Assembly: GCF_051622035.1 (NCBI RefSeq)
Contig: NC_135358.1
Coordinates: 16,588,501-16,652,500 of the forward strand
Source of the DNA: Arctopsyche grandis
Taxonomy: Eukaryota > Arthropoda > Insecta > Trichoptera > Hydropsychidae
Length of the DNA stretch: 64,000 nucleotides
Direction: 5' to 3'
The translations under genes and the position numbers were made by a program. Position 1 is the stretch's first letter. The number at the start of each line of letters is the position of its first letter. Shown piece by piece: positions 26,940 through 47,214 of the stretch. The notes beneath the pieces are model-generated. The model was not told the origin of the DNA. It made no database searches and saw only the letters and a list, made by a program, of their open reading frames with translations.

Positions 26940-27386
26940 TATGATATTTATCAAAGCTTCGTTCTTAGGATGTGCATCATGTGATAGTTATCACTGTTAT
27001 CAGCATTATTCTGCGTCTATTTCGCCATAGGGCACTTGTCGACCGAACGTACATAAACTATTGTTTAGTTTTAGTACCTACATACATACATACATACATA
27101 TGCAAAGCCGCAAACGGAACATGGAAATCAGATAACTGTTCTACCTTGAACTATAAATGCACTATACATATGTACATAGATAATGCATTTTGATATGGAA
27201 CAAGGAAATTAAGCAACAATGCTTCAAATTAAATAGAAATTCTTTTAGTAATGACGAAATATATAATGTCTACAAGAAATCGTAAGCTAGGGCAAACACA
27301 TGTATGTACATAGTTATGCGTTCAAACACAGCGAGGACCTAATTTTGGCTCGTGTATATATGTACATATACTATGTATGAATGTAC

Positions 27387-27451
27387 ATATATATATATAT
27401 ATATATATATATATATATATATATATATATATATATATATATATATATATA
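27387..27451. repeat. (TA)n microsatellite after LINE tail
   Basis: About 65 bp of TA directly following the (ATC)n tail of the LINE; mirrored in the right arm at 46660-46724. Confidence 0.95.
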
Positions 27452-27463
27452 TCATCATCATCA

Positions 27464-30421
27464 TCATTTACAGCCATTCGCCATCCACTGCTGGATGAAG
27501 GCCTCTCCAACACGCTTCCACTCGTCTCTGTTTTGCGCAACACTCATCCATCTCATTCCGCACATTTTCCTAATTTCGTTCACCCATCTTCCTTGCGGTC
27601 TTCCTTTTACTCTTTTGCCTTCTCTCGGGTACCATTCAAGCACTTCTTTTGTCCACCTTTCGTCCATCCTCCTAGCTACGTGACCCGCCCATTGCCATTT
27701 CAATCTCTTCACTCTATCCACTATGTCCACTACCCTTGTCATATTTCTCACCCACGTGTTCCGCTTCCTGTCTTTCCTCGTTATGCCAAGCATACAGCGT
27801 TCCATACTTCTTTGAGTGCATTGGATTTTATTTTGCATCTTGGCGTTCAGTGTCCAAGTTTCACATCCATACGTCATCACTGGCAAAACGCATTGATCAA
27901 AGATCCTTTTCTTCAGGCAGAGTGGCATTTTTGATTTAAAAACAGCATTCATCCGTCCAAATGCACTCCACCCTAATTTCATACGTCTCTTTATCTCTTC
28001 ATTTTTACTACCAGACATGTCAATTATTTGACCTAAATATAAATAATTATTTACTACTTCTACTGGTTTATCATCTAAGGGGATGCTATCAGGCATGCAA
28101 TAACTATTGAACATTAGTTTAGTCTTATCTACGTTAATTTTTAATCCTACTTTTCTACTTTCCCTGTCCAGCTGTGTTAGTCTGATAAGTAGGTCAGCTG
28201 AATCACGAGCTACTAAAACTATATCGTCTGCGAACCGAAGGTGACTCAAAAAGCGACCATTGATGCTTACTCCGGCTGTATCCCAATCCAATTTCCTGAA
28301 AACTCCCTCAAGCACCGCATTGAATAACTTGGGCGAGATTGTATCTCCTTGTCTTACTCCTTTTCCTATGCTAAATCTATCTGTACCTGAAAAAATTTTA
28401 ACCGAAGCTGTGGCATTCTTATATATTGCAGCTAACAGTCCCACATAGGGTTCCGGCACTCCCTGTGTTTTTAGAGCGTTAAGTACTGCATTATGACTAA
28501 CTGTATCGAAGGCTTTCTCATAATCGACGAAACCTAGGCACAATGGCCGTTGATATTCGTTGGCGCGCTCGATTAGTTCGCCAACTACTTGGAGGTGGTC
28601 CATTGTGCTGAAATTTGCCCTAAACCCTGCCTGCTCTATAGGTTGGTTCTCGTCGAGGATATTCTTCAGCCTTTCTGTAATAACCTTCGTGAAGAGCTTG
28701 TAGACCGCTGAAAGTAGACTAATGGGTCGGTAGTTCTTGATATCGCTTTTGTCGCCTTTTTTGTGTATTAAAATGATAGTTGCGTTATTCCATCCTTCTG
28801 GTATAACTTGGTTCTGGATGCATTTGCTGAAAAGCCTAGCTAAGATATTAATTAGGGGGGGGCCGCCACATTTTAGTAAGTCAATGGGAATATTATCTTC
28901 CCCTGGGGTTTTACCGTTCTTTGCAGTTTTTAGCGCGGCCTCTACTTCGCTAGGCAATACTGCAGGAACCCTTTGGCCGTGTGTCGATTCCAGAGCGGGG
29001 AATTGGCCGTTGTCGTTCTCGTATAGTTTTGCATAGAACGTGTAAACTCTGTCTATGATTTCTTCTCTATTCCTAATTATTACTCCGCTCTCTGATCTGA
29101 TTGCGATCATTTGGTTTTTGCCTAAGAAAAGATCCTGTTTGCACTTTTTCAGGCTACGGTTATTCTTAATGGTATTTTCTATTAGCTTGCTGTTAAAATC
29201 CCTGACATCCCTGACTATTCTCTTTTTAATTTCCTTATTTACTAGATTGTATTCTTGCTTATTATTATCCCTATCTAAATTCCTTTTATGCTTAATTAGG
29301 TTTTTTGTTTCCGCTGAAATTTTGCTTAATTTAATCTGTTTCCTGAATCCACCTAATTTCTTACCTGTTGAGGTTAGAACCGAACTAATTACAGTGTTCA
29401 ATTCCTCGATGTCTGCTTCTGGGTTTAATTTCCCGTATCGATTTCCAAGTTCGAGTTCGAATTCCTTTTTCCTAGACCTTAGTTGAGCGAAATCTGGAGA
29501 GTTACTGCATCCTTTTATTAATTTCCTACGTTCGCAATTTATATTAATGGCCATCTTGGCACGGACTAATCTGTGATCGCTACCTATATCTACTTTACTT
29601 AAAACACTAACGTCTTTAACGGAGTGCAGGGCATTTGTTAGGATGAAATCGATCTCGTTTCTGTCTCCTTTAGGACTCTCCCAAGTCCACTTATTGTTGG
29701 TGTTTTTCCTGAAAAATGAATTAGTGATAAAGAGCCTGTTGTGTTCTGCGAATTCTATGAGGCGATCGCCTCTGTCGTTTCTTTGGCCGGTACCAAAATT
29801 GCCTACTGCTCTTTCAGTATTTGCCTTTTGTCCTATTTTTGCGTTAAAGTCGCCCATGATTATTTTAAAGTGGTGACGGCTATTATCGTATGCGTCCTGT
29901 ATTTTTTCGTAGAAGTCTTCTATTTCCTCGTCTGGGTGGCTAGATGTGGGGGCGTACACTTGGAAGATTTGACAAGTGTACCTGCTCGAGATTCTTAATA
30001 CTATATAGCATATACGTTCCGATATGTCGCTTATTTCTATAATATTTCTTTATATTCTCTTATTGATAAGAAACCCTACTCCTCCTATTCTACCATTTGG
30101 TAGCCCTCTCCAGTAGAGACAGTTACCACTTTTTAGGATTATTTGGTTTTGCTGTTTTCGTCTTACTTCACTAAGTCCTATTATATCCCATTTGATATTT
30201 TCTAATTCATTCTCTAATGCAAGCACACTTCCTTCACTCGATAACGTTCTTACATTGTACGTGGCTAAATACAGGTTTCTATTAACTAAGCTATCATCCA
30301 TCGTCACTCTTACCTTGTTGGAGGTTTGGATATTATTTTTCTCGCATTTATCCAAGATGTGTTGAGAAAAAGGCGGTACTTGAGAGAGATTTCCATTCAA
30401 GGAGTGAGTTCTTACCGCCAT
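27464..30421 (-). pseudogene. RTE-like LINE, endonuclease-reverse transcriptase, one nonsense codon
   Basis: One 985-codon frame encodes an APE-type endonuclease followed by a reverse transcriptase. Endonuclease residues seen: N56, E85, Y156, D191/N193 (GDFNAK), D258 and SDH 281-283. Reverse transcriptase motifs: VDYEKAFD around 632-639, RQGD around 690, and FADD in place of YxDD around 730. The C-terminal GHVARRMDERW and VAQNRDEW resemble RTE-clade proteins. Such proteins nick chromosomal DNA and copy their own RNA at the nick. A single stop (TAA at 30050-30052, codon 124, where the other copy has GAA) breaks the frame within the endonuclease; the reverse transcriptase part stays open from 29959. 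A (GAT)n tail follows the stop codon. The second copy at 43690-46647 differs by a handful of residues and has its own, different stops. The clade assignment is from motif resemblance only. Confidence 0.88.
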
Positions 30422-31142
30422 AGACTCTTCTCTGTGGTCAGCTTTGACAGATAGTCATCCTAGGTATCACTTGGATCACTTATGAGTTATTACATGCCAT
30501 TTAACAGGGTTACTTTGTAAGTGAAAGTAGTTAGTTATGATAATAATAGATTAGCAATTGTTATACTACTTTTTTACAGATCTTTATCGTGAGACGCCTC
30601 TTTGGAGACAACGGATTTATATATGTGAGTGCGGTTTGCAATTTAATATTTTAATAATAAATTTAGTAAAGAATATAAAATTACACGAATTACTTTAATA
30701 TAAATTAAATATGAAAAAGAACTATTAGACAGTTGGGAAACACCGTTTCTGTTTGCTATTATTCTATTAAGTAAAGTTCGTTAAAAATTTTTGTCTGAAA
30801 GCAATTATGTGGAAGATTTATTGCTTCTGTGGGACCGAATTTTGACTGGCGACCCTTATTTTTTTGTATTCAGGTAGGGAGATGTATCTCGTTCGTATAC
30901 GCTTTTGTAACTGACACAAAATTAACACAAAATTTTTCGCAATCACTGATATTAAAAACGCTGTTAACGGCCGATCGTCTGTTTATTTTTACACTTAAAT
31001 TATACTAGGATGCAATTAGTAAAATAAGTGATTAGATGGTTAAATTTTTAGATTAAATTTCGTGCAATAGCCGGGTTTAAGCGAGTAATAGCGGGAAGAA
31101 CGCAGAAGCACGTCTTCCCCGCATGACACGAAAGACCGAACT

Positions 31143-46647: not shown

Positions 46648-46659
46648 TGATGATGATGA

Positions 46660-46724
46660 TATATATATATATATATATATATATATATATATATATATAT
46701 ATATATATATATATATATATATAT
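46660..46724. repeat. (TA)n microsatellite after LINE tail
   Basis: About 65 bp of TA directly after GATGATGATGATGAT; the mirror of 27387-27451. Confidence 0.95.
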
Positions 46725-47150
46725 GTACATTCATACATAGTATATGTACATATATACACGAGCCAAAATTAGGTCCTCGCTGTGTTTGAACGCATAACTA
46801 TGTACATACATGTGTTTGCCCTAGCTTACGATTTCTTGTAGACATTATATATTTCGTCATTACTAAAAGAATTTCTATTTAATTTGAAGCATTGTTGCTT
46901 AATTTCCTTGTTCCATATCAAAATGCATTATCTATGTACATATGTATAGTGCATTTATAGTTCAAGGTAGAACAGTTATCTGATTTCCATGTTCCGTTTG
47001 CGGCTTTGCATATGTATGTATGTATGTATGTAGGTACTAAAACTAAACAATAGTTTATGTACGTTCGGTCGACAAGTGCCCTATGGCGAAATAGACGCAG
47101 AATAATGCTGATAACAGTGATAACTATCACATGATGCACATCCTAAGAAC

Positions 47151-47214
47151 GATATATATATATATATATATATATATATATATATATATATATATATATA
47201 TATATATATATATA
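47151..47214. repeat. (TA)n microsatellite at outer edge of right arm
   Basis: About 64 bp of TA starting exactly where the arms stop matching. Confidence 0.95.

Follow-up and report, generated by a model that had tools for sequence, protein, structure and literature searches.

Two RTE-type LINEs in an inverted repeat share a 3' flank, probably through independent insertion into (TA)n arrays and subsequent repair copying

The window analyzed here, a stretch of 64,000 nucleotides (C4:16588501-16652500, NC_135358.1) of a 475.7-Mb genome in 189 contigs, contains a large inverted repeat that resembles a segmental duplication. Comparison with other genome copies indicated that the LINEs forming most of the two arms belong to different sub-lineages, whereas the DNA beyond their 3' ends is found in full at these two places only. 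We consider it reasonably probable that the LINEs inserted independently into (TA)n arrays and that repair synthesis later copied ~0.5 kb of flank from one to the other.

Results

Structure of the inverted repeat

BLAST of the window against itself aligned positions 26890-31253 with 47215-42851 in inverted orientation, with 99.2% identity across an alignment of 4,372 columns that takes in the terminal TA arrays; this and a base-by-base alignment confirmed the inverted repeat with ~4.19-kb, ~99% identical arms that had been noticed in the initial annotation. Without the outer TA arrays (26959-31142 vs 42961-47152), the differences between the arms came to 10 clean SNPs, a 7-base indel and a single-base length difference in a homopolymer; three more mismatch columns beside the 7-base indel are alignment shifts and were not counted as differences. 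Starting at LINE position 3,523, arms A and B are the same in the remainder of the LINE with its tail, in the inner TA array and in the flank. The homology had been described as ending at TA arrays on both sides of both arms, which is accurate except at the 3' side of arm A, where 19 bp intervene. In arm B, the base equivalent to 26959 is joined straight to the TA run. The two arms are surrounded by four different outer flanks. The parts of the repeat are summarized in Table 1; elsewhere in the window, a TAF1 exon is located at 58.5 kb, which points to an animal host.

Table 1 Features of the inverted repeat and related fragments, in window positions
Feature	Position	Strand	Remark
Diverged 3' fragments of related elements	12420-12655, 20272-20498, 24313-24633, 48341-48946		
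Outer TA run, arm A 3' side	26875..26939	.	19 bp (26940-26958) short of shared segment
Non-LINE 3' flank of arm A, 396 bp	26959..27354	.	Identical in arm B
Inner TA array of arm A, 98 bp	27355..27452	.	Identical in arm B
LINE A, RTE-type, full length (5'UTR, frame, (ATG)5 tail)	27453..31142	-	From frames, Pfam and genome copies
TA array at LINE A 5' end	31146..31253	.	Target array of LINE A
Spacer between arms	31254..42816	.	Contains hAT element
TA array at LINE B 5' end	42817..42958	.	
LINE B, family of LINE A	42961..46658	+	Sub-lineage with 7 extra bases (~43251-43257)
Inner TA array of arm B, 98 bp	46659..46756	.	Identical to that of arm A
Non-LINE 3' flank of arm B	46757..47151	.	396 bp if base 47152 is counted, which can be assigned to the flank or to the outer TA run
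Outer TA run of arm B	47152..47215	.	Abuts copied flank directly

The LINE and its family

The core of each arm is a 3.69-kb LINE with endonuclease and reverse transcriptase in a single frame and without ORF1; Pfam domains Exo_endo_phos, Exo_endo_phos_2 and RVT_1 matched both arms, which were searched in pieces. Each arm contains one in-frame stop, but at different places (near 30050 in LINE A and near 44543 in LINE B), and the frame of LINE A, whose first ATG is at 30421, comprises 985 codons up to the terminal stop when counted across its in-frame stop. The LINE ends in TAA followed by (ATG)5, with the 3' end of LINE A at ~27453. TAA followed by (ATG)n was found in 20/20 copies and, in the B-type set, in 18/20, the 3' ends of the other two not being found. 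Judged from this layout and the Pfam domains, the core is provisionally classified as a young RTE-type LINE. The lepidopteran RTE elements HmRTE-e01 and BmRTE are described as sharing this arrangement, a single frame that encodes an AP-type endonuclease and a reverse transcriptase (990 aa in HmRTE-e01, compared with 985 aa here) and, like the LINE here, a 5'UTR, a short simple repeat directly after the stop and frequent truncated copies (PMC2887409). Apparent target-site duplications of ~10 bp were seen by eye in two copies outside TA arrays (L052 and L053) and are unreadable inside TA arrays.

A genome search with the 688 bp of the LINE A 5' end yielded 841 candidate places, of which 40 were scored, A included, all listed at 100%; the 3' 1,948 bp yielded 1,699 candidates, and 21 of the 40 scored, A included, tied at the top score. 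Note that 841 and 1,699 are numbers of candidate places that were not verified singly; the near-identical copies actually seen amount to ~100 (39 others through the 5' end of A and 60 others through the B pattern described below, perhaps overlapping). The ~720 bp before the start codon, noted initially as matching in addition to the LINE, proved to be the 5'UTR of the family, since it is present in other genome copies. The LINE part is 99.7% identical between the arms, but other copies are equally alike, and this identity thus does not mark the arms as sisters.

LINE A and LINE B belong to different sub-lineages

The 7-base form of LINE B was found at 61 places in the genome, B included, by an exact 40-base pattern across the site, while LINE A lacks the 7 bases. 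For further comparison, the first 1.8 kb was examined in 56 of 58 other copies, two having no recognizable 5' end. These comprised 29 copies found by the 5'UTR of A, 28 of them without the 7 bases, as this search favors, and 27 copies found by the pattern of B, all of them with the 7 bases by selection. Against these 56 copies, changes at 30285 and 30052 occurred in A only and changes at 43012 and 44543 in B only, and no variant of this 1.8 kb was common to A and B against the A-type majority. The B SNPs 43172 and 44265 recurred together in one copy only among those compared (C1:8723150), which in its 3' half also carries the form of B at 45305, but not those at 45202, 45551 and 46482. Of 20 B-type copies fetched, 18 were readable, and six of these had the 45305 form; four of the six shared 45202 with B, and none shared 45551 or 46482. 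This ruled out 45305 and 45202 as private or near-private changes of B, since both are B-type polymorphisms at other loci.

Taken together, 5 of the 11 main differences between A and B (the 7-base indel and four SNPs) occur in other B-like copies, and none of these forms occurs in A. Point mutation after a duplication could hardly have produced five differences that exist at other loci, supporting two separate insertions as the most likely origin. The last 1,948 bp of LINE A were identical to 20 other copies (among 40 scored of 1,699 candidates), which leaves the 3' half of A without a private variant. At the 5' junctions, A reads TGAT|AGTTCGG and B reads TGG|AGTTCGG, a further difference between the two. 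From the sub-lineages and the junctions, read in the assembled sequence, LINE A and LINE B very probably inserted independently. Duplication of a whole arm, in contrast, would make the two LINE bodies each other's closest relatives, which they are not, and no variant exclusive to A and B was found. Whole-arm duplication alone is therefore insufficient, since the LINE bodies belong to two sub-lineages.

The complete 3' flank was found at the two arms only

The genome was searched with the 396-bp flank by a method that leaves out simple repeats and very common words. All five candidates were scored: the two arms matched in full at 100%, and the other three hits covered 30-48 bp. The initial annotation had ~430 bp of shared non-LINE DNA past the LINE 3' tail; this is upheld, with a length of 396 bp and full occurrence at the two arms only. 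With the inner 98-bp TA array, the segment identical between the arms amounts to 494 bp. The 396 bp as a 3'UTR of the LINE was ruled out by the four diverged fragments in the window (Table 1), which match only to ~13 bp from the LINE end. Furthermore, none of 33 distinct other young 3' ends continued into the 396 bp (20 young ends and 18 readable of 20 B-type ends, five having been fetched twice). Three of 20 loci carried two or three 16-mers in common with the flank, which are TATG/TACA simple repeats. Other copies with both extensions had been named beforehand as an observation that would speak against a duplication; of the two, the 5' extension is family-wide and the 3' extension is not.

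As this search revealed no further complete copy of the flank, its presence in both arms requires that some DNA was copied from one locus to the other. Microhomology at the outer junction (TCGTTC) is 1 bp at most. Scaled from the 6 arm-private SNPs in 3.69 kb, ~0.8 differences would be expected in the 494 bp, compared with zero observed; with so few expected, the lack of differences is uninformative on timing.

Most of the LINE copies compared lie at (TA)n arrays

In a scripted count, 40 of 56 copies (18/29 A-type and 22/27 B-type) had a perfect (TA) run of at least 20 bases no more than 8 bp from the 5' end. Under a strict rule, the 3' side was located at a TA run in 15 of 20 copies, with an interrupted TA array in at least one of the others, and 12 of 18 B-type copies had TA arrays on both sides. 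Top score was the basis of selection for the A-type copies and the 20 3' ends; B-type copies were taken in coordinate order on C1-C5. As a background, TA runs of at least 24 bases accounted for 391 of 55,660 bases in the flanks upstream of the copies and, in the window without its two arms, for 624 of 54,400 bases, or ~1%. Part of the LINE copies sit outside TA arrays, and no TA array directly follows the four old window fragments. Among the copies compared, the family favors (TA)n arrays strongly, but not absolutely.

Discussion

Origin of the inverted repeat

The LINE bodies, their 5' junctions and the TA arrays are accounted for by two insertions, but the 494 bp are not; these were either copied from one locus to the other or already duplicated beforehand. 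It had been argued initially that two retrotranspositions would not share a 3' flank and that the repeat is therefore better explained as a segmental inverted duplication. The first part holds insofar as copying of the flank is needed; duplication of the whole 4.19 kb as one event does not fit the different sub-lineages and 5' junctions. We favor, as the probable course of events, independent insertions followed by repair synthesis that copied ~0.5 kb of flank. Two copies of the young family would have entered (TA)n arrays independently, in opposite orientation and ~12 kb apart. One LINE, most likely B, may later have suffered a break or a stalled fork on its 3' side that was repaired with A as the template, through the 3.7-kb homology or the TA arrays; synthesis would have overrun the 3' end of A into the inner TA array and the 396 bp of flank, and the copied end would have been joined to the TA array of B itself. 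The repair step, its direction from A to B and its timing after both insertions are inferred. The direction appears likely because B without the 494 bp would be an ordinary LINE inside one TA array, the usual site. Such a repair would have left no direct trace in the sequence: as the 3' half of A is free of private variants, LINE B offers no marker of a switch point.

Template switching or break-induced replication at inverted repeats, as outlined in PMC8755829, resembles this proposal in that the inverted copy serves as the template. The events described there are microinversions of 17-33 bp, whereas here ~0.5 kb of flank would have been copied across ~12 kb. No description of flank copying between retrotransposons was found in the titles and abstract openings of the open-access literature searched.

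Alternatives differ mainly in how they accommodate the LINE bodies and the identical 494 bp. An inverted segmental duplication of the whole 4.19 kb would explain flank and LINE together by one event, if gene conversion from a B-type copy elsewhere later replaced the 5' part and junction of LINE B; donor copies are many and often TA-flanked, so that a conversion tract could cross the junction. The tract would, however, have to span at least ~2.3 kb (from 43172 or earlier to 45305) and also alter the 5' junction, and the absence of any variant exclusive to A and B again argues against a common origin of the arms; we regard this course as unlikely. The order of events could also be reversed, such that the 396 bp and its TA array were first duplicated in inverted orientation and two LINEs inserted independently into the copies afterward. 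Hits in paired arrays are conceivable in a family located at TA arrays in 40/56 copies. The inner TA arrays, however, have the same length and sequence and are preceded by the same tail ATG count, which would be rare for two free insertions: among B-type 3' ends, all 14 measurable TA runs after the tail differ in length. Such an order is distinctly improbable.

Assembly is difficult in young LINE copies and in long TA arrays, and a flank or arm could have been misplaced among them. The 11 main differences between the arms and the four different outer flanks speak against such an artefact, and one misjoin within the LINE would not place the TA array and outer flank of arm B beyond the copied 396 bp; an artefact is thus quite unlikely, if slightly less so than prior duplication of the flank. 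The least probable of the explanations considered, and one to which we give very little weight, is 3' transduction, in which reverse transcription at B used a read-through transcript of LINE A containing the 396 bp and changed template to a B-type RNA. It would account for the outer end of arm B lying directly in a TA array, a frequent target of the family. Its simple form, starting from A, predicts an A-type body, but B is B-type, and the outer end lacks the (ATG)n tail present in 20/20 and 18/20 of the 3' ends (two not found).

Target preference of the LINE family

Dong, a member of the R4 clade, offers a comparison for insertion into simple repeats. Dong inserts into (TAA)n (PMC2887409) and Togen, which is related to NeSL, into (TG)n (PMC4640811); both resemble the LINE here in their simple-repeat targets, but they use a restriction-like endonuclease, whereas that of the LINE here is of the AP type. 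RTE insertion sites are stated not to appear sequence-specific (PMC2887409), and site-specific LINEs with an AP-type endonuclease are given as occurring only in the Tx1 and R1 clades (PMC13295347). The preference for (TA)n arrays is for this reason notable in a LINE with an AP-type endonuclease: RTE insertions as described in PMC2887409 have no apparent site specificity, whereas here 40 of the 56 copies compared have a TA array at their 5' end. A TA-targeting RTE was not described in the titles and abstract openings of the open-access literature searched. Such a preference would enlarge the small set of target-selecting LINEs with AP-type endonuclease.

Consequences

A young, common LINE family can make a striking inverted repeat pass for a segmental duplication, and sub-lineage markers separate the two. 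If the flank copying is real, LINE pairs in TA arrays can spread single-copy DNA through repair. More broadly, and tentatively, an animal RTE-type LINE with AP-type endonuclease might have (TA)n arrays as its main landing site genome-wide. Fragile arrays lined with near-identical LINEs in both orientations might then be repair hot spots at which single-copy flanks are copied between LINEs, so that pairs of independent insertions mimic segmental duplication; we regard this generalization as possible rather than probable. Recombination between the arms could in principle invert the spacer, and equally so for other inverted pairs in a family this large. Hairpin RNA from the arms would require a transcript of ~20 kb.

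hAT element and TAF1 exon

The spacer separating arms A and B of the inverted repeat contains a hAT element, whose open frame corresponds to 718 aa with the Pfam domains DUF4371 and Dimer_Tnp_hAT. The element has the termini CAGTGGCG/CGCCACTG and is flanked on each side by the 8-bp direct repeat ATGTATAT. Elsewhere in the window, at 59345–60019, the minus strand carries a frame of 224 aa that, judged by eye from its sequence, resembles the C-terminal portion of a hAT transposase. For the TAF1 exon, the top match was a solved TAF1 chain (E 8.1e-42).

Positions of the hAT element and the TAF1 exon in the window
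Feature	Window position	Frame	Evidence
hAT element	36585–39318	36705–38861, minus strand	Open frame, Pfam domains, ends, direct repeat
TAF1 (TFIID subunit 1) exon	58499–58867		Match to solved TAF1 chain

LINEs and TA arrays

Single TA arrays holding more than one LINE were seen in two cases elsewhere in the genome. At L068 (C9:6884157–6884356), the TA tail is followed by what looks by eye like an interior segment of the same LINE; at L086 (C1:8719200–8721800), the LINE copy at C1:8723150, which shares SNPs with the LINE of arm B, lies tail to tail with a related LINE end, with a short TA run between them. Within the window, a 316-bp TA array (23621–23936) contains two (ATC)4 blocks that resemble the (ATG)n tail of the LINE in reverse, with no adjoining LINE; these blocks may be extremely truncated copies, or may simply reflect changes in the microsatellite.
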